Shown: positions 27,014 through 43,329 of the stretch, one piece after another
Layout: each line of letters opens with the position of its first letter
Numbering within the stretch: the first letter of the stretch is position 1
NCBI GenBank assembly: GCA_030018495.1
Contig: JASEFS010000002.1
Location: forward strand, 139,359-188,627
DNA from: Deltaproteobacteria bacterium
GTDB taxonomy: Bacteria > Desulfobacterota > Desulfobaccia > Desulfobaccales > 0-14-0-80-60-11
Direction: 5' to 3'
Length of the DNA: 49,269 bases
Position numbers and translations under genes: made by a program
The notes under the pieces: generated by a model
What the model saw: the letters and a program-made list of their open reading frames with translations, nothing else
What the model was told of the DNA's origin: nothing
Databases searched by the model: none

Positions 27014-28074
27014 CTTATCGCATTGCAGTTATCCCCGGTGACGGCACCGGGCCGGAGGTGGTGGCGGAAGGCATCAAAGTCTTGAACGCCGTGGCCGGGC
27101 CGGCCAATCTCGCCTTTGATTTTGTTTATTATGACCTGGGCGGCGAACGCTACCTCAAGACCGGCGAAATCCTGCCGGATTCCGTGATCAGCGAACTCAA
27201 GCAGTTCAAGGCCGTGTACCTGGGAGCCATCGGCCACCCCGACGTCAAGCCCGGCATCCTGGAAAAGGGCCTGCTGCTCAGGTTGCGGTTCGAACTGGAC
27301 CAATACATCAACCTGCGGCCGGTGATTCTTTACCCCGGTGTTGAAACGCCTTTGAAAGACAAAGGCCCCGACGACATCGATTTTGTGGTGGTAAGGGAAA
27401 ATACCGAAGGCCTTTATGCCGGAGCCGGGGGCTTTTTGAAATACGGCACCCCCGATGAAGTGGCCGTGCAGTCGTCCATCAACACCCGCAAAGGAGTGGA
27501 CCGCTGCTTGAAGTACGCCTTTGAAACGGCCATGAAGCGCGATCGCGGCAAGAAGCTCACCCTGGTGGCCAAGACCAACGTGCTGACCTATGCCTCCGAC
27601 CTGTGGTTCAGGGCTTTCGAAGCCATGGCGCCGCAGTATCCGGACGTCACCACCGACTACGCCCATGTGGATGCTACCTGCATGTGGTTTGTGAAAAACC
27701 CGGAGTGGTTCGACGTGGTGGTCACTGACAACATGTTCGGCGACATCATCACGGACCTGGGGGCCATCATCCAGGGCGGCATGGGCGTGGCCGCGGGGGG
27801 CAATATCAACCCCGAAGGCGTATCCATGTTCGAGCCCATCGGCGGCTCGGCCCCGAAATACACCGGCCAGAAGAAGGTGAATCCCATTGCGGCCATAGCC
27901 GCGGCCCAGATGATGCTGGAGCATTTGGGCGAAGCCAAGGCCGCCGCGGCCATAGAAGCAGGCATCAAGAAAACTGCCACCCAACTGCAAAGCATGGCCG
28001 CGGGCCGGATGGGGTACGACACCACGCAGGTGGGGGATATGGTGGCGAAGTATGCCGCGGAGGCGCTGCGATAG
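27010..28074 (+). CDS. leuB: 3-isopropylmalate dehydrogenase (LeuB-type)
   Basis: This 354-residue beta-decarboxylating dehydrogenase has the IPGDGTGPEV start, the substrate-binding LRFELDQYINLRP segment, FVVVRENTEGLYAGAG, and the metal-binding VVTDNMFGDIITDLGA region. It oxidises 3-isopropylmalate to 2-oxoisocaproate. The ENTEGLYAGAGG segment is also typical of tartrate or other short-chain members, but coupling to leuD supports LeuB. The stop codon abuts the left heptamer array at 28074. Confidence 0.9.
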   Translation: MTYRIAVIPGDGTGPEVVAEGIKVLNAVAGPANLAFDFVYYDLGGERYLKTGEILPDSVISELKQFKAVYLGAIGHPDVKPGILEKGLLLRLRFELDQYINLRPVILYPGVETPLKDKGPDDIDFVVVRENTEGLYAGAGGFLKYGTPDEVAVQSSINTRKGVDRCLKYAFETAMKRDRGKKLTLVAKTNVLTYASDLWFRAFEAMAPQYPDVTTDYAHVDATCMWFVKNPEWFDVVVTDNMFGDIITDLGAIIQGGMGVAAGGNINPEGVSMFEPIGGSAPKYTGQKKVNPIAAIAAAQMMLEHLGEAKAAAAIEAGIKKTATQLQSMAAGRMGYDTTQVGDMVAKYAAEALR

Positions 28075-28095
28075 CAGTCAGCAGTCAGCAGTCAG
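28074..28095. repeat. heptamer array GCAGTCA, left arm
   Basis: Three exact units of GCAGTCA (28074-28094) begin at the last base of the leuB stop codon. The inverted partner (CTGACTG units) is at 28507-28528, on the other side of the four-helix-bundle gene. Confidence 0.85.
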
Positions 28096-28111
28096 AATTA
28101 CAGGACTAAAG

Positions 28112-28492
28112 TTGGTTAGAACATTTCAGGATTTGTTGGTATGGAATAAGGCCATGGATTTGGTAACGGAAATCTATCGCCTGACAAAAACCTTTCCGAA
28201 GGATGAGCTTTTTGGCCTTACCGGACAGCTCCGCCGCGCGGCAATTTCTGTCCCGGCCAATATCGCCGAAGGCCAGGGGAGGTTGTCGGAAAAGGAATTT
28301 CGTCAATTCTTGGGGAATGCCAGAGGCTCGTTATCTGAAATGGAGACACATATCTTAATTGCGCATAACCTTCGCTACCTGGATGAAGAATCAACCAGAC
28401 ATCTTCTTGATGCGTCTGCTGAAGTGGGCAGGATTTTAAATGGACTTCTATCCAAAGTCGTCTCAGCCAAAAAAGAGAAATCACGTGAGTAG
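28112..28492 (+). CDS. four-helix-bundle protein (23S rRNA-intervening-sequence / Avd-like family)
   Basis: This protein of about 126 residues has the full family pattern: RTFQDLLVWNKAMDLVTEIYRLTKTFPKDE, then LTGQLRRAAISVPANIAEGQGR, then FLGNARGSLSEMETHILIAHNL. It folds as an antiparallel four-helix bundle. Relatives are encoded in 23S rRNA intervening sequences, and a related group (bAvd) assists diversity-generating retroelements. The function of the free-standing members is unknown. TTG at 28112 gives the typical M-V-R-T-F start; a longer frame runs back into the repeat and leuB. It is bracketed by inverted heptamer arrays. Confidence 0.82.
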   Translation: MVRTFQDLLVWNKAMDLVTEIYRLTKTFPKDELFGLTGQLRRAAISVPANIAEGQGRLSEKEFRQFLGNARGSLSEMETHILIAHNLRYLDEESTRHLLDASAEVGRILNGLLSKVVSAKKEKSRE

Positions 28493-28506
28493 CCAGGCAT
28501 TCGATA

Positions 28507-28528
28507 CTGACTGCTGACTGCTGATTGC
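28507..28528. repeat. heptamer array CTGACTG, right arm
   Basis: CTGACTG, CTGACTG, CTGATTG and a final C: the reverse complement of the GCAGTCA array at 28074-28095. The two arms enclose the whole four-helix-bundle gene (about 411 bp between arms). Confidence 0.85.
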
Positions 28529-28568
28529 TTTGTTTCACATAAACCAGCCATAATCGAGGTAATTAAGA

Positions 28569-33494: not shown

Positions 33495-34757
33495 TCAGTT
33501 TCCCAGCTGACCGCTGCCGATTTCTTTCAAGGTGATGCGCGCGTGGATGCCCAGGTGGTCCTGGAAATAGCGCCGCACCCGGTAGCACAGGCCCTCCAGG
33601 GCCTTGATTTCATCGGAGAACAGGGCCTCGTCCACGGTAATATCCAGGGCCAAAGATTCCAGGCCCGCTTCGGTCTGCACTTCATAGCGCCAATGGGGCA
33701 GGTGGCCCCCCAACAAGTCCTTGAGCAGGCGGCCGATCTGGTCGGGGTGGACCTTGATGCCGCCTACGGAAAAGATGGCGTCCACCCGGCCGCGGATGGG
33801 ACCCAAACGCACCAGGGTCCGGCCGCAGGCGCAGGGCTCCGGATTCAGGGAGGTCAAGTCCCCGCTTCGGAAGCGCACCAGGGGGAAAGCCACGGTGGAC
33901 AGGGTGGTGATCACCAACTCGCCTTCGGCCCCGAGGGGCAGCGCTTCGCCGGTCTCGGGGTCGATGATCTCAGGATAGAAGTGGTCCGCGCAGAAATGAA
34001 AGCCCGCGTTGGCCTCGCAGGAAAAGGCCAATCCCGGCCCCATGACTTCGGTGATGCCGTACGCGGTGGCGATCCTGAGGTGCAGGCCCGCTTCGATCTC
34101 CCGCCGCAGTTCTCCGGGGAGCGGTGCGGCCACCAGAAAAGCCCGTCTCAGGCTCAACTCCGCGGGTGCCAAATTCAGCCGGTCCATAACCGTGAGCAGG
34201 TGCCGGGCGATGGAGGGCGTGGTCACCAGGACCGAGGTTTTGTAGTCCCGCATCACCATGAGCTCTTTGGCGAAATTGAGGGAGGCTGCGGGAATCACCG
34301 AGGCGCCTAAATATTCCGCGCCGGCCATGAGGTCCCGGCGCCAGTTGGCCAAGCCCGGGGGTAGGATGAACTGCACGATGTCGTCCCGGCTGACCCCGGC
34401 TGCGGTGTACAGGCGGGCCAAAAGCTCCTGCCAGAGCTTGAGGTCCTGGGAGGTATAGCCCACCACCAGGGGCTTTTCCGTGGTGCCGGGGGAGGACACG
34501 ATGCGCACGATGTCCCTCAAGGGCACCGCAAAGAGGCCGTAGGGATAATTTTCCGAGAGGTCCTCCCGGGTCGTGAACGGCAGGCGCTGCAGGTCGCCCA
34601 GGTCCCGGATGGCCTCAGGGGCCAGGCCGTGCGAGTCGAACTGGCGGCGGTAGAATTTCACCTGGCGAAAGGCCCGGGTGAGGGTGCTCTGGAGGCGCTC
34701 CAGCTGCAAAAGTTCCAGTTCCTCTGTGGCCATTGCTTCAAATTGGGGCTGGCGCAC
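33495..34757 (-). CDS. phenylacetate-CoA ligase homologue with altered P-loop
   Basis: This 420-residue protein of the PaaK branch of adenylate-forming enzymes keeps NYPYGLFAVPL, the CGRTLVRLGPIRGRVD block and the C-terminal hinge. The AMP-binding loop that reads SSGTTGKP in the first copy is SPGTTEKP here (residues 89-96), with Ser to Pro and Gly to Glu. The following [10 protein letters not shown] region is replaced by PPGLANWRRD, and the usual IIRGVNVFP hinge is FSVGGIKVHP. It may be a ligase for another acid or an inactive binding protein. It lies 7 bp downstream of livF. Confidence 0.78.
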   Translation of the reverse strand: MRQPQFEAMATEELELLQLERLQSTLTRAFRQVKFYRRQFDSHGLAPEAIRDLGDLQRLPFTTREDLSENYPYGLFAVPLRDIVRIVSSPGTTEKPLVVGYTSQDLKLWQELLARLYTAAGVSRDDIVQFILPPGLANWRRDLMAGAEYLGASVIPAASLNFAKELMVMRDYKTSVLVTTPSIARHLLTVMDRLNLAPAELSLRRAFLVAAPLPGELRREIEAGLHLRIATAYGITEVMGPGLAFSCEANAGFHFCADHFYPEIIDPETGEALPLGAEGELVITTLSTVAFPLVRFRSGDLTSLNPEPCACGRTLVRLGPIRGRVDAIFSVGGIKVHPDQIGRLLKDLLGGHLPHWRYEVQTEAGLESLALDITVDEALFSDEIKALEGLCYRVRRYFQDHLGIHARITLKEIGSGQLGN

Positions 34758-34764
34758 GTTCGCT

Positions 34765-35502
34765 TCACCTCCCTTCGGTGAATTCCTTGTAGTCCCGGCC
34801 CAGATAGGCCCGGGTCACCTGGCGGTCGGCCAGAAGGTCCTGGGCGCTGCCGGAAAGAATGATGCGCCCGGTTTCCAGGACATAGGCCCGGTCGGCGATT
34901 TTCAAGGCGGCCCGGGCGTTTTGCTCCACCAGCAAAATGGTCATGCCCTCCTCCCTGAGGCGGGTCAGGGTGGCCAGAATGGTTTCCACCACTAAAGGCG
35001 CCAGCCCCAGGGAGGGCTCATCCAGAAGCAGGAGCTTGGGGCGGGCCATCAGGGCCCGGGCTATGGCCAGCATCTGCTGCTCGCCGCCCGAAAGGGTGCC
35101 GGCCTGCTGCTGCAGGCGTTCCCTGAGTTTGGGGAACAGGAGATAAATCCGCTCCAGGTCCTCCATGATTTCCTGTCTGGGGTGGCGGCGAAAGCGGCGG
35201 TAAGCGCCCAGCTCCAGGTTTTCGGCCACGGTCATGGGGCCGAAAAGCTGCCGCCCTTCCGGGACCTGGGCAATCCCCAGGGACACCAGGTTTTCCGAGG
35301 CCACCCCGATGAGAGAGCGCCCCTGGAAGCTGAGCTCCCCTTCCCGGCGCACCAGGCCGCAGACCGCGTTCAACAGCGTGGTCTTGCCCGCGCCGTTGGC
35401 CCCGATGAGCGCCACGATTTCACCGGCGCGGATGTGGCAGGTCACGCCGCTGAGCGCGGTGACGGAGCCGTAGTAGGCGTAAAGGTTGCGGATTTTTAAC
35501 AT
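34765..35502 (-). CDS. livF: branched-chain amino-acid ABC transporter ATPase LivF
   Basis: This 245-residue ABC ATPase has Walker A GANGAGKTT at about 34-42, the signature LSGGEQQMLAIARALMARP, and Walker B LLLLDEPSLGLAP. The short C-terminus (ILSGSAQDLLADRQVTRAYLG) is that of LivF. It energises the LivHM permease from the cytoplasm. In the usual operon it follows livG directly; here a 1.85-kb stretch with a broken AT-rich gene lies between. The second paaK-like gene follows after 7 bp. Confidence 0.93.
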   Translation of the reverse strand: MLKIRNLYAYYGSVTALSGVTCHIRAGEIVALIGANGAGKTTLLNAVCGLVRREGELSFQGRSLIGVASENLVSLGIAQVPEGRQLFGPMTVAENLELGAYRRFRRHPRQEIMEDLERIYLLFPKLRERLQQQAGTLSGGEQQMLAIARALMARPKLLLLDEPSLGLAPLVVETILATLTRLREEGMTILLVEQNARAALKIADRAYVLETGRIILSGSAQDLLADRQVTRAYLGRDYKEFTEGR

Positions 35503-35517
35503 GTTAAACTTGAAAAG

Positions 35518-37048
35518 TTACTTGCCCTGCAAGGGATTACCAAAAACCACACTATCCTCAAAATTTTGCAAAACCGGCAAACCGGCCTTGGATTCAAGTT
35601 CCTCGAGTGAAGGTAAATACCATCGCCAGGTTACTTTTCGCAAGTAAACGATAATTGCCTGATCGGTTAAAACTGACTGAACCATTTGGTTGAATTGTTT
35701 TTCATAATTGCCGTTGGGCAAATGCGTTATGGGGTCAATTTTCTCAGGGATTCTAACAGCTTTTTGCCCTGTAAAAAACCATATTAAATCTTCGCCGTTT
35801 GAATAAACAACCTTATTGTCAAAATAACTTAAGAAGGGCCATGTTGGTGATTTTTTCCAATTTATTGAGTTAAAGCCTATACCGTTATGATGAACGTCAA
35901 TTGCATTACTGATTGTGACAGTGCTGTTAATAAAGATGGACAAGCATAAAAAAGCGATAAAAAAATGCCATGTGCGCTTATTATTTGCCGTGTCTGCGAT
36001 AATCCAAAAAGTCAACATAAAAATACAGAACAAGGATATCAAGGCCGGCGACAACATGCGCCCATCAAGAGGAATCTTTGCATCAAAAAAAGATATAGAG
36101 ACGATAATTAAGAAAATATAATTTAATAAAAATAAAATATTTATAAAATAAAATACAATTAAAAAAGATTTATTTATATTTAATGGAGGTTTTTTTGTAA
36201 ATAAATAGAACAAAGAAGCTAATAATAAAATAAGGATAATACAAAATAAGAATCCCTTCATAATTGGATGAAGGTCTATAGGTAAAATTAAATAAATAAC
36301 CGTAGTAATTCCCTAGCTTAAGATTGCCAATCCCGATCGGATGCACCGATATGGACCTGTTTGTTGCCGATTCGGCTACTAACATGTTGCGGATTAGAAA
36401 GATAGCCAAAGGCAGAGACGCAATAGTAACAGCAGAGTAAATTTTTTTAATCTTATTTCTTAAAGAGCCGTCTCCGAAAATTAGAACAACGACAGCTATG
36501 GTAGGCAATAAGGTGACGCCGATATAGCGGGTTGTGAGAGCCATACTTGCTACAAAGGATGCCACAAGCAGCAAGTAAAACTTACCGCTTATAATATGAA
36601 AGGAAAGTAAAATTATGGTAGATAGAGTAAAGGCAATGAAGGCCGGCTCTGACCACGCCATTGTATGCACGGAGAAAAATGTTGCTGATGATAAAAAGAA
36701 AAAAAGGGTGGAGCAAACAGCGGACAAATCATTATTCGTGCATATCTGAATAGCCAGACATAAAAGAATAATATTGGCGCCGGTAAAAAATGCGCTAAGC
36801 AAGCGAGTAGCTTGAAGCAGGTCTCCTTTTTGAAAGAAGCCCGCAACCGCTATCAGTAGAGGATAAATTGGCGGGAAGTGGGTCAATGGCTTATTACTTT
36901 CGTAAAAACCCTCCCCTGAAAGGAGGCTTTGTGCAGTTTTGAGGTAAACTATGCTGTCCTGGCTTATGCCCGGCCCCCAAGCGATTATCCAGTACATCAG
37001 TAAAGAAGCACAAATGCCGGAGATTATAATTATTGTTCTGATAGGCAT
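35518..37048 (-). pseudogene. frameshifted AT-rich GT39-like membrane glycosyltransferase
   Basis: Two overlapping minus-strand frames, 36170-37048 and 35518-36261, read together as one polytopic protein of about 500 residues. The first half has GPGISQDSIVYLKTAQSLLSG and HFPPIYPLLIAV, the start typical of bacterial GT39-like glycosyltransferases. The second half continues membrane helices and a soluble tail. The frames cross between 36170 and 36312, so a one-base shift breaks the gene, or there is a sequencing error. Base composition is strikingly AT-rich compared with all neighbours. It sits between livG and livF, so it looks like a foreign insertion into the operon. Confidence 0.75.
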
Positions 37049-37240
37049 GGCTTCGAGAGCAGTCTAATCCTTGCGGCTACCTTCCAAGCAGCACTGGCGG
37101 GACGCCTGTGCCACCTGGCCTGGTTGGTTTCAAAAAAGAAAAGGTTTTTCCCACGACTATTTTGCATCAAAAACTAAAACAAAAAAGGGAAAACCGGAAA
37201 CCGGGAATTATTAAAAAACATAGCAAAATAGAACAGGGAA
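37049..37240. other. non-coding left part of a 304-bp space between livG and the glycosyltransferase remnant
   Basis: No gene is visible. It holds the palindromic element at 37097-37117, an A-rich stretch, and at its end the beginning of the heptamer tract at 37241. Open frames on both strands here are translations of the repeats and are not genes. Confidence 0.6.
37097..37117. repeat. palindromic element GGCGGGACGCCTGTGCCACCT
   Basis: This is a copy, in reverse orientation, of the element at 24600-24625 (AGACGCCTGTGCCACC against GGTGGCACAGGCGTCT), with slightly decayed arms. It lies just upstream of the broken glycosyltransferase. Confidence 0.55.
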
Positions 37241-37347
37241 CCCAAAAGCCGAAAACCCGAAACCAAAACCCGAAACCAAAAACCAAAAACCAAAAACCAA
37301 AAACTGAAAACTGAAAACTGAAAACTGAAAACTGAAAACTGAAAACC
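37241..37347. repeat. long heptamer array AAAACCA/AAAACTG
   Basis: About fifteen 7-bp units run almost without break. The first part uses words such as CCGAAAA and ACCAAAA, then AAAACTG is repeated six or seven times to the end (GAAAACCGCC). It stops 5 bp before the livG stop. It is the longest array in the window and is the A-rich member of the heptamer group also seen at 20371, 22846 and 30731. Confidence 0.9.
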
Positions 37348-37352
37348 GCCTT

Positions 37353-38129
37353 TCACCCCTGCCAATCCGTCCCTAAATACGCGGCGATGACCTCCGGGTG
37401 CTTCTGGATGGCCCGGGGCGGGCCTTCGGCGATGAGGCGGCCGTAATTGAGCACCGCGATGTCGTCGGCCACCTCCATGGTCAGGCTCATGTCGTGCTCC
37501 ACCAAAAGAATAGTAATGCCCCGGTCCCGAAGGGTCAGAATCATTTCACCCAGGCGCTCGGTTTCCACTCTGTCCAGGCCCGAAGCAGGTTCGTCCAGGA
37601 GCAGGAGGCTGGGCTCCGAAGCCAGACTCCGGGCGATTTCCAGGAGACGTTTGAGGCCCAGGGGCAGCACCGCGGCGGGTTGAGCCGCGCGGTCGGCCAG
37701 ACCCACGAATTCCAGGGCCTCCAACGCTTTGTCCCTGATGGCTGCCTCCTCCCGGCGGGCCCAGGGCAGGCGCAGGCCCCCGGAAAATAAGCCCGCCCGG
37801 CTCAGCCGGTGGCGTCCCACCATGACGTTTTCCAGGACCGTCATGTGATCGAAAAGCTGAACCAACTGGAAAGTCCGGGCAATACCCAAAGAGGCCACCG
37901 CGTAAGCCGGAAGGCTCTGGATTTCCTGCTCCCGGTAAAGAATGCGGCCGCGCTGGGGGGCCAAAAAGCCGGTGATGAGATTGAAGAGCGTCGTCTTGCC
38001 GGCGCCGTTGGGGCCGATGACGGCCTTGACCAATCCGGCCGGGACCCCGAAGCTGATGTCGTTCACGGCCATCAGGCCGCCGAAGGCGAGGCTTACGTCC
38101 TCCAGTTGCAGCAGCCTTGTTTCAGACAG
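37353..38129 (-). CDS. livG: branched-chain amino-acid ABC transporter ATPase LivG, probable CTG start
   Basis: This 258-residue ABC ATPase has FGGLMAVNDISF, Walker A GPNGAGKTT, the Leu-rich signature region, and Walker B LLLLDEPASGLDRVE. The first ATG (38072) would delete the first beta-strand and the FGG aromatic loop that contacts ATP. The frame is open back to 38186 with no ATG, GTG or TTG. A strong AAGGAGGGG site (38136-38144) stands 6 bases before CTG at 38129, which gives a normal N-terminus SETRLLQLEDVSLAFGG and an 8-bp overlap with livM. I take CTG as the start. Confidence 0.85.
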   Translation of the reverse strand: MSETRLLQLEDVSLAFGGLMAVNDISFGVPAGLVKAVIGPNGAGKTTLFNLITGFLAPQRGRILYREQEIQSLPAYAVASLGIARTFQLVQLFDHMTVLENVMVGRHRLSRAGLFSGGLRLPWARREEAAIRDKALEALEFVGLADRAAQPAAVLPLGLKRLLEIARSLASEPSLLLLDEPASGLDRVETERLGEMILTLRDRGITILLVEHDMSLTMEVADDIAVLNYGRLIAEGPPRAIQKHPEVIAAYLGTDWQG

Positions 38130-39090
38130 GGAAAGCCCCTCCTTGGCGCTTATAGCGGCGGAATTCCTTGAGGTCCAGAAGGCCCCTTACCAGGCCCCGG
38201 GGCAGGAAGATCATAACTACCATCAAAATGCCGCCGAAGATGACCACTTCAAAGTCATGGAAAAACACCAGAACCTCAGGCAAGATGGTGAGAACCCCGG
38301 CGCCCAGCAGAGACCCCCAGACGCTGGCCATGCCCCCCACCACCACCATGGTGACCAGTTTTATGGAAAACATAATATCGAAGGAAGAGGGGGCGATGAA
38401 GTTCATGGTATGGGCGAAAAGGCTGCCGGCCAGCGAAGCATAGAGGGCGCTCCAGACGAAGATCAACAGTTTGAGGCGCTGAGTGTTTACTCCCAGGGAT
38501 TCGGCCGCGGCCTCGCTGTCGTGAAGGGCGCGGAGCGCCCGGCCGATGCGGGAATCCACGATAGAGGCGCTTAAAATCAGGATGAGGATGACCACCATCC
38601 ATATTAGCAGGTAAAGTTTCCAAGGGGTGTCAAAGGATAAGCCGGCCAGATGGAGAGCGGGAATGCCGGCCAGACCGGAGGGGCCGCCGGTCCAGGCCTG
38701 AGCTTCGGTGAACACGATATAAACGATGACGCCGAAGCCCAAGGTGGCCATGGCGAGATAGTAGCCCCGAAGCTTCAGGGCCGGGATGCCGATGAGAAAC
38801 GCCGCGACTCCGGAAATAATCATGCCGGCCAGCATGGCCAGCCAGGGATTGAGGCCGTAGGTGACCGTGAGAATGCCGGAAGTGTAAGCTCCCAGACCGA
38901 AGAACGCGGCATGCCCCAGGGAAATCTGGCCGGCGTAGCCCATGAGGAGATTCAGACCCACCACCAGCAGGGTGTGAATACCGATGAAATTGAGCAGGGT
39001 CAGGTAATACTCGTTCTCCATCAGGAGGGCAATCAGAAATACCGCGGCGGTGAACAGGAGCCAGCGGTTCAACAGGCGCGGCAGCCTCAT
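38122..39090 (-). CDS. livM: branched-chain amino-acid ABC transporter permease LivM
   Basis: This 322-residue permease has about nine or ten membrane helices and the family motif GYAGQISLGHAAFFGLGAYTSG near residue 50, plus GMASVWGSLLGAGVLTILPE in the last third, the LivM coupling region. It pairs with LivH in the inner membrane. It overlaps livH by 4 bp at its start (ATGA) and livG at its end. Substrate range follows the binding proteins, not this subunit. Confidence 0.93.
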   Translation of the reverse strand: MRLPRLLNRWLLFTAAVFLIALLMENEYYLTLLNFIGIHTLLVVGLNLLMGYAGQISLGHAAFFGLGAYTSGILTVTYGLNPWLAMLAGMIISGVAAFLIGIPALKLRGYYLAMATLGFGVIVYIVFTEAQAWTGGPSGLAGIPALHLAGLSFDTPWKLYLLIWMVVILILILSASIVDSRIGRALRALHDSEAAAESLGVNTQRLKLLIFVWSALYASLAGSLFAHTMNFIAPSSFDIMFSIKLVTMVVVGGMASVWGSLLGAGVLTILPEVLVFFHDFEVVIFGGILMVVMIFLPRGLVRGLLDLKEFRRYKRQGGAFPV

Positions 39091-39956
39091 TGCTTGCCCC
39101 CCAGGAGTCCTTGGGGCCGGATGAAGAGGGCTACCAGGAGGATCAAAAAGGCCACCGCGTCCCGGTAGCCGGAGGAGATAAGGCCGCTGGCCAGAGATTC
39201 GGCAACCCCCAACAAGAGTCCCCCCAAGACTCCGCCCAGGATGCTGCCCAGACCTCCGAGGATGGCGGCCGAGAAGCCCTTTAAACCCAGCATGGTGCCC
39301 ATATCATATACGCCAAGGGTCAACGGCGCGATGAGGATGCCGCCCGCGGCCCCCAGCGCGGCGCTGAGGCCGAAGGAAAGCTGCACCATGCGGCCGGTGG
39401 AGATGCCCACCAGCCGGGCGGCCCGAGGATTATAAGCGCAAGCCCGCATGGCCTTGCCCACCAGCGTCAGGCGGAGAAAGGCTTCCAGGAACAGCACCAA
39501 AAGAGCCCCCACGCCTAAAACCCAGAGATTTTGCGGGAGAATGGTGGCGGGGCCGAGACCGATGGGCACGTTGCTGGTAAAGGGCGGCAGGCTGTAAGGG
39601 TCCTTGCCCCACAGGAGCATGGCAATCCCTTTGATGAACACCGCGCCGCCCACGGTGATAATAATCAGGCTGATGGGGCTGGGGTCCCGCACAGGGCGCA
39701 GCGCCAAACGCTCAAAAACCAGCCCTATAACGGTGACCATGGCCACCCCGCCGGCAAAGGCCAGGGGCAGGGAAGGGTTCACGTGGTAAATGCTGATGGC
39801 GCACAGGGCCCCCAACATGACCATTTCGCCCTGGGCGAAGTTGATAATGGTGGTGGCGTTGTAGATGATGCCGAAACCCAGGGCGATAAGCGCGTAAATG
39901 GCGCCGTTGGTAAGGCCGGAGATCAGGTATTGGAGAAGGGGTGCAAGAATTTCCAA
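39087..39956 (-). CDS. livH: branched-chain amino-acid ABC transporter permease LivH
   Basis: This 289-residue permease has about eight helices with GLTNGAIYALIALGFGIIYNATTIINFAQGEMVMLGA at the start and LGGLGSILGGVLGGLLLGVAESL near the end, both typical of LivH. It forms the channel with LivM. It is separated from livK by 124 bp, which hold a pair of inverted heptamer arrays, although both genes must belong to one transcription unit. Confidence 0.93.
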   Translation of the reverse strand: MEILAPLLQYLISGLTNGAIYALIALGFGIIYNATTIINFAQGEMVMLGALCAISIYHVNPSLPLAFAGGVAMVTVIGLVFERLALRPVRDPSPISLIIITVGGAVFIKGIAMLLWGKDPYSLPPFTSNVPIGLGPATILPQNLWVLGVGALLVLFLEAFLRLTLVGKAMRACAYNPRAARLVGISTGRMVQLSFGLSAALGAAGGILIAPLTLGVYDMGTMLGLKGFSAAILGGLGSILGGVLGGLLLGVAESLASGLISSGYRDAVAFLILLVALFIRPQGLLGGKQ

Positions 39957-40080: not shown

Positions 40081-41241
40081 TTATTCAATAAGCTTAAAAT
40101 CGCCTTTCTCGATCTTAACCATGACAAAGGCTTCAGGGGTCAGGCCGTTGTGGTCCTCAGGGCTCATGTTAAAGACGCCGCTGACTCCCACAAAATTCTT
40201 GGTCTGCTCCAGGGCGGCCCTGATCTTGGCCCGGTCGGCCCCGGCCTTCTCCAAGGCCTGGGCCAGCATCATCATGGCATCATAGGCATAGCCGCCGAAG
40301 CTTGAGGCCGGTTTGTTATACTGGGCCTGGTACTTCTTGTCATATTCCTGGCAAACGGCCTTTTGCGGGTCAGTGTCGGGAAGGAGGGGGTAAACCACCA
40401 GCTTGCCGGCCGGCATCATGATGCCGTCCGCCGCGTCTCCCGCCAGTTCGATGAATTTCCTGGAGGCCGCGCCATGGCTCTGAATGAGGGGAATAGTCAC
40501 GCCCAGCTGCTTCATGTTTTTGGCAACCAGGGCCGGGGCGGGACCCGTGCCCCAGCAAATGACCGTCTGGGCGTCGGTGCCCCGGATTTTGGTGAGCTGC
40601 GGGGTCATGTCAGTATCCTTTTCCCCAAACACTTCTTGAGCCACCACCTGAATGCCGTATTCCTCGGCCTGCTTGGTCAGCTGCTCTTTTCCGGATACGC
40701 CGAAGCCGGTGGACACGGTGAGGATGGCCACCTTGGTCAGGTTATGCTGCTTCAGATATTGATAAATCCGGCTCACCGCCATGGCGTCGGTCTGCGCGGT
40801 TTTAAAGGTCCAGACGCGCTCTTTGGCCGGGGAAGTGATGCCGATGCCCGCGGCGCAGGAAATGAGGGGGGTTTTGGCCTGCTGGGTGATGGGCAAAACC
40901 GCCATGGAGGTATGGGTGAGGCTGGGGCCGATGATGGTAAGGGCCTGGTCTTTCTTGAGAAGTTTTTCGGCGTGCAGCCGGGCCTTGGTCACGTCGCCCT
41001 CGTCATCGTAGATCACGACCTTCACGGGATTGCCTTTGATGCCACCCTTGGCGTTCAGTTCCGCGGCCAGCATCTCCATGGTGTTGCGTTCGGGCTCCCC
41101 CAAATAGGAGGCAGGTCCGGTGATGGAAAAGATGCCGCCGATGACATAAGGTTTTTTCTCGGCCTTGGCTCCGGCCGCACCGAAGCAGATCAAACCGGCC
41201 ATTATGACTGCCACTAATACGAGAGACGCTCTGGACTTCAT
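40081..41241 (-). CDS. livK: ABC transporter substrate-binding protein LivK
   Basis: This 386-residue protein has a signal peptide (VAVIMAGLICFGAAGAKA) and a Leu/Ile/Val-binding fold: PYVIGGIFSITGPASYLGEPERN, IGPSLTHTSMAVLPITQQAKTPLISCAAG, and a Tyr-rich C-terminal lobe. It captures the substrate in the periplasm for LivHMGF. The context with two PaaK-like ligases and an ACT protein suggests an aryl or branched-chain acid or amino acid. It is flanked on both sides by inverted heptamer pairs, unlike the other liv genes. Confidence 0.88.
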   Translation of the reverse strand: MKSRASLVLVAVIMAGLICFGAAGAKAEKKPYVIGGIFSITGPASYLGEPERNTMEMLAAELNAKGGIKGNPVKVVIYDDEGDVTKARLHAEKLLKKDQALTIIGPSLTHTSMAVLPITQQAKTPLISCAAGIGITSPAKERVWTFKTAQTDAMAVSRIYQYLKQHNLTKVAILTVSTGFGVSGKEQLTKQAEEYGIQVVAQEVFGEKDTDMTPQLTKIRGTDAQTVICWGTGPAPALVAKNMKQLGVTIPLIQSHGAASRKFIELAGDAADGIMMPAGKLVVYPLLPDTDPQKAVCQEYDKKYQAQYNKPASSFGGYAYDAMMMLAQALEKAGADRAKIRAALEQTKNFVGVSGVFNMSPEDHNGLTPEAFVMVKIEKGDFKLIE

Positions 41242-43191: not shown

Positions 43192-43222
43192 CAGTGGTCA
43201 GTGGTTAGTGGTCAGTGGTCAG
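43192..43222. repeat. heptamer array CAGTGGT, left arm
   Basis: CAGTGGT, CAGTGGT, TAGTGGT, CAGTGGT and CAG lie upstream of paaK. This is the same word as at 39959-40000. The inverted partner is 43295-43329. Confidence 0.82.
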
Positions 43223-43294: not shown

Positions 43295-43329
43295 ACTGGC
43301 CACTGACTACTGATCACTGGCCACTGAAC
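43295..43329. repeat. heptamer array ACTGGCC, right arm
   Basis: ACTGGCC, ACTGACT, ACTGATC, ACTGGCC, ACTGAAC: five units, inverted to 43192-43222 across about 72 bp. The array overlaps the 3' end of the winged-helix gene and supplies its stop codon at 43314-43316. Confidence 0.8.

Follow-up and report, generated by a model that had tools for sequence, protein, structure and literature searches.

The livG-livF junction as a probable recurrent gene-acquisition slot in the liv operon of a Desulfobaccales family

We consider it probable that, in this Desulfobaccales family, the liv operon harbours a recurrent, lineage-specific slot for gene acquisition at the livG-livF junction, and that the contents of this slot are exchanged by recombination through the flanking genes. 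The reading as a recurrent slot follows from the finding that most relatives have their own, different genes in this gap. Foreign passenger genes would enter between the conserved livG and livF genes, would be tolerated when they are co-directional with the operon and its mRNA can still be read through, and would turn over at the slot. In the genome described here, the current passenger is predicted to be an AT-rich PMT/GT39-like membrane glycosyltransferase gene whose reading frame is already lost. The analysis centers on a 49,269-nucleotide stretch of contig JASEFS010000002.1 (GCA_030018495.1), hereafter the window, and on the corresponding loci of related genomes.

An AT-rich gene in two frames between livG and livF

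The liv operon lies on the minus strand of the window in the order substrate-binding protein gene, livH, livM, livG, a gap, livF, a paaK-like gene, and a second substrate-binding gene (Table 1). An earlier note on this DNA had placed livG and livF about 1.85 kb apart, with a palindrome and the longest heptamer array at the upstream side of the gap, and this description is borne out: the ORF coordinates give a gap of 1,850 bp, and the array, 110 bp long with a period of 7 and 15.7 copies, is the longest heptamer array of the window (next 8.4 copies). In operon order, the insert consists of this array, an imperfect inverted repeat, the palindrome, and, split over two frames, an AT-rich gene whose end lies 15 bp from livF. 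No known RNA family was found in the livG-livF gap, and no tRNA that could serve as an integration target is present in the window.

Table 1. Features of the liv operon and its surroundings in the window
Feature	Position	Strand	Basis and remarks
Substrate-binding protein gene	40081-41241	-	First gene of the liv operon
livM and livH, permeases	38122..39956	-	ORF calls, Pfam; junction tight in nearly all relatives
livG, ABC ATPase	37353..38072	-	ORF call, Pfam; upstream flank of the slot
Heptamer array, TTTTCAG / TTTTTGG units	37239..37348	-	Tandem repeat; begins directly 3' of the livG stop codon
Imperfect inverted repeat, 18-nt arms, 57-nt loop	37148..37240		
REP-type palindromic element, partly decayed	37076..37119 (core 37096-37114)	-	54 genomic copies; same element flanks a RAYT gene
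N-terminal half of split glycosyltransferase-like gene, 292 aa	36170..37048	-	ORF, homology; last ~41 residues out of frame
Frame-break region at tetranucleotide (TTAT) repeat	about 36290..36310	-	Homology of both halves and direct reading of the sequence
C-terminal half of split glycosyltransferase-like gene, 247 aa	35518..36261	-	ORF; matches residues 298-566 of intact relatives
livF, ABC ATPase	34765..35502	-	ORF, Pfam ABC_tran; orthologues 77-82% in relatives; downstream flank of the slot
Phenylacetate-CoA-ligase-like (paaK-like) gene	33495..34757	-	After livF in the conserved operon
IVP element	28073-28529	+	Further IVP elements in the livF-paaK gap of G008, G010, and G017 and in the livM-livG gap of G002

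The two gene halves are encoded by ORFs in different frames that overlap by 92 nt. Since the N-terminal half (E 7e-37) and the C-terminal half (E 6e-21 to 5e-25) align to successive segments of the same single proteins of 543-570 aa (L027, L002), they represent one gene with a frame break, which this homology puts at about 36290-36303. At a GC content of 0.375, the gene falls below every other 1.5-kb stretch of its 188-kb contig (mean 0.579, sd 0.037), and its third-position GC is 0.35-0.45 compared to 0.76-0.84 in the liv genes. No homologue was detected at E 1e-10 in any other genome of the same family; the own genome contains one paralogue with 34% identity, and the best match outside it reaches only 33% identity and comes from another Desulfobacterota family. 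Neither a close homologue nor a donor of the glycosyltransferase was found in the plasmids, phages, viral contigs, and genome contigs searched. The checks of base composition and closest homologue proposed in the earlier note have thus been carried out. Its description as a very AT-rich, split gene holds, although the name GT39-like is slightly strong for the broken protein: the N-terminal half scores 19.7 bits against the PMT_2 profile (PF13231), below the cut-off of 26.1, whereas the intact relatives pass it with 28-32 bits and also weakly match the LA_3751/LA_3752 glycosyltransferase family (NF047440). The likeness to these membrane glycosyltransferases is therefore a weak profile match over the N-terminal half, and the window copy differs from them in its scores under the curated cut-offs, in an identity of ~33% to the best relative, and in the absence of the intact reading frame expected of such an enzyme.

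The glycosyltransferase has probably lost its function. It is possible, although rather unlikely, that the enzyme is instead intact and active and that the frame break stems from an error in sequencing or assembly or from switchable slippage at the TTAT repeat. This reading draws on the single draft assembly, on the position of the break at a short tandem repeat, and on its being the only one in about 1.5 kb; but two and a half copies of a tetranucleotide make a weak slip site, and the composition of the gene together with its lack of relatives at this site fits an ongoing passenger.

The insert also bears on how livF is expressed, for which the earlier note had offered either an own promoter or read-through. 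Two promoter-like sites precede livF, compared to 3.7 +/- 2.0 in shuffled sequences, and neither an own promoter nor a terminator for livF stands out above the shuffles. As there is no such promoter signal and the insert is co-directional, read-through is the simpler of the two readings, and livF expression most likely depends on it. The frame break could add polarity.

The junction across relatives

The gap between livG and livF measures 444-2,108 bp in 10 of the 16 same-family genomes in which it is bridged, nearly all of them fragmented draft metagenome assemblies. Short gaps occur in G006 (3 bp), G011 (37 bp), G013 (50 bp), and G024 (91 bp), the first three of which represent empty sites. 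livF is not reached within 3.3 kb of livG in G021 and within 1.05 kb in G019, and the locus is missing from the assembly of the sister species G001. In 45 operons of outgroup Desulfobacterota, the gap has a median of 54 bp and a maximum of 205 bp, and none is expanded (Fisher p=9e-8 vs. the family). This comparison of the junction among relatives, also suggested in the earlier note, thus identifies adjoining livG and livF genes both within the family and outside it, and no relative carries the same gene at this place with native composition. In the Desulfobacca-type genomes G026 and G022 (L050, L051), the gene behind livG encodes a peptidoglycan-associated lipoprotein (OmpA-like), other unrelated genes come after it, and livF was not found adjacent to livG.

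Within the family, the livG-livF gap is expanded in 10/17 genomes vs. 17/171 for 18 other conserved co-directional gene pairs (p=7e-6), a local comparison with pairs drawn from the liv neighbourhood rather than from the whole genome. Other gaps of the operon and the contig also expand, such as that between paaK and braC (4/13), and part of the effect therefore reflects a general looseness of intergenic regions.

The cargo is mostly non-homologous between genera and comprises at least 8 non-homologous sets. XRE antitoxin-like and YafQ-like toxin genes and an 8xMP-like membrane protein are encoded in the gaps of G002, G007, and G018, an RES-domain protein in G008, a DUF2867 protein and an alpha/beta hydrolase in G016, a lipoprotein-like protein in G005, a secreted protein of 138 aa in G003, and an 8xMP-like protein in G021; in the sister family, G027 carries an Mrr type IV nuclease. 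The gap of G012 contains repeats only. G013 and G009 belong to the same genus, the former with a 50-bp heptamer array as the only content of the gap and the latter with 844 bp that include a broken, AT-rich cargo gene. Every recognised cargo gene is co-directional with the operon, which is likewise the case in most other expanded gaps examined and is consistent with selection to keep the operon mRNA uninterrupted. In the small sets of cargo proteins that were scanned, neither integrase nor transposase domains turned up.

Accessory genes are thus concentrated between two conserved neighbours, with 10/17 vs. 17/171 in the local comparison and 0/45 in the outgroups, and they turn over rapidly between genomes. 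In these respects the slot resembles the hotspots of horizontal gene transfer without mobile elements described by Oliveira et al. 2017 (PMC5635113), in which non-homologous accessory genes also lie between two conserved genes, mostly without a recognisable mobile element and with exchange plausibly by recombination in the flanking genes. In contrast to those hotspots, which are seen within a species, the present one is found across the genera of one family; it sits within a co-directional transport operon, with which all its recognised cargo is aligned in orientation.

Repeats at the junction

The palindrome belongs to a multicopy family, with no copies of the reversed pattern used as a control. 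Two copies (C36:12355 and 12475) immediately precede a Y1_Tnp gene (C36:12635-12823), behind which related palindromes are located. Such a short multicopy intergenic palindrome beside a Y1_Tnp gene identifies it as an REP element of an RAYT system; the copy in the livG-livF gap differs from REP elements mobilised by RAYT (Y1_Tnp) in being partly decayed.

The heptamer arrays occur throughout the genome, with a marked preference for this period (tandem arrays on contig 30: 21 of period 7 vs. 0-1 for periods 5, 6, 8, 9, and 10). Array pairs of the same unit at a distance of 100-700 bp are inverted in nine cases and direct in none. Two inverted arrays (CAGTGGT / CACTGAC) at 43192-43222 and 43301-43327 of the window are separated by 78 bp with no gene between them. 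In the livM-livG gaps of G012, G018, G007, and G021 (L039, L041, L044, L046), there are long hairpins (ACCACAAAGACACAAAG...CTTTGTGTCTTTGTGGT type) built from units of ~8 nt instead of heptamers. Cyanobacterial STRR are likewise short head-to-tail heptamer repeats in intergenic regions near gene ends. The TAACTGA repeats of Beggiatoaceae (PMC4679880) share these properties. In contrast to both, a single genome here contains many different units, and pairs of one unit at 100-700 bp occur only in inverted orientation.

Given these repeats, the array and the palindrome may be the real agents, in that heptamer-armed IVS-like units and REP/RAYT elements inserted first and created a permissive, recombinogenic spacer that later collected genes. 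We regard this as unlikely, but several observations speak for it. Arrays lie directly behind livG in most genera of family f1 and in most genera with cargo, and genera without arrays there (g4, g6) have no cargo. An array is all that the empty site of G013 contains, so it probably preceded the cargo there, and inverted heptamer arrays enclose the cargo of G009. Against it, G009 is the only filled gap tested with inverted arms at both ends, G003 and G016 hold cargo but no array, and most of the arrays across the genome have no cargo at all. No inverted partner of the livG-side array was found in the gap of the window.

Genes enclosed by inverted heptamer arrays

In several operon gaps, inverted heptamer arrays enclose genes for 23S-IVP / four-helix-bundle proteins of 118-126 aa (PF05635, TIGR02436). 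The element of this type in the window (Table 1) has arrays AGCAGTC / GACTGCT and folds with a closing stem of ~23 pairs (z = -4.2), the IVP gene lying in the loop between terminal inverted repeats as in an intervening sequence (IVS). Among 68 IVP loci, mostly from Desulfobaccales, 54 have flanks that are more complementary than 99% of random 350-bp segments; the median inverted complementarity is 24.2 vs. 10.0 for random segments, and that of direct repeats is 10.2. Self-matching of the arms reaches 0.65 at lag 7 compared to 0.22-0.36 at other lags, and while the heptamer unit varies between loci, the two ends within a locus match, like a covarying stem. Inverted-array flanks are also found in 15/23 further Desulfobacterota IVP loci and in 11/13 plasmid IVP loci of cyanobacteria, Azospirillum, and Gemmatirosa. 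On cyanobacterial plasmids (L281, L284, L285), IVP genes are lodged between cas genes (cas6 / cas4, cas10 / cmr3).

The 23S IVS of Coxiella has a terminal stem and heptameric repeats before the S23 gene (PMC4990558), similar to the IVP elements described here, which lie outside rRNA. No description of an intergenic IVS-like form with heptamer arms was found in the literature searched. Apparently orthologous IVP elements occupy the livM-livG gap of two genomes, with an intact gene in G002 (L045) and an internally deleted gene with its arms retained in G017 (L042), a pair that may illustrate a possible route from an IVP element to solitary arrays. Since the cargo of G009 lies inside inverted arrays and arrays also surround the deleted IVP copy of G017, solitary arrays may be relics. 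It is conceivable, albeit doubtful, that the heptamer arrays of these genomes are stem arms, or relics of such arms, from a widespread class of intergenic IVS-like elements around a 23S-IVP gene, and that an array of this kind behind livG opened a formerly tight operon junction into a permissive slot in which foreign genes have since accumulated, most recently the broken glycosyltransferase. The livG-livF insert of the window itself was considered as an IVS element and rejected, as it has neither an IVP gene nor an inverted array partner in the gap.

Mode of acquisition

In two genomes, the cargo is followed by a displaced copy of the livG 3' end. In G016 (L043), a second livG 3' end is identical at 44/52 nt (score 36 vs. 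a null maximum of 15), and in G021 (L046), a 40-nt livG tail accompanied by a heptamer array scores 28 vs. a null maximum of 13.5. Such second ends suggest that incoming DNA sometimes brings its own livG end, as expected for recombination through livG, and they point to recombination at this gene. The passengers would likely be exchanged through the flanking livG and livF-paaK sequences, which are conserved, with relatives that possess this slot as the source of the DNA.

Site-specific integration, in which an integrase recognises the conserved livG tail and leaves a duplicated 3' end before the integrase genes are lost, would also explain these tails and the fact that the insertions begin directly behind or within livG. 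We consider it improbable, as the cargo scanned yielded no integrase domain, no tail copy is present in the window's gap or in the filled sites other than G016 and G021, and homologous recombination accounts for the tails equally well. Very improbable, finally, is a reading in which a foreign glycosyltransferase gene inserted once by chance at an unremarkable site and then decayed: the gene is indeed foreign in composition, absent from relatives, and broken, but this reading is largely refuted by the differing cargo that most relatives carry at this junction and by the far more frequent expansion of livG-livF than of other conserved junctions. The transfer, insertion, and subsequent decay proposed in the earlier note are thus supported by the lowest GC of the contig, the lack of a same-family homologue, the adjacency of livG and livF in four relatives, their short distance (at most 205 bp) in the 45 outgroup operons, and the broken frame, but not as a single accident.

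Implications for the family

Inverted heptamer arrays around IVP genes in two phyla and beyond offer a testable origin for the puzzling heptamer repeats of bacteria. The livG-livF junction would, in turn, represent a gene-acquisition hotspot inside a conserved transport operon that operates without mobile-element genes. As an empty and a filled site exist in the same genus (G013 and G009), the rules of tolerated insertion, namely orientation, spacing, and read-through, are directly testable in this family.
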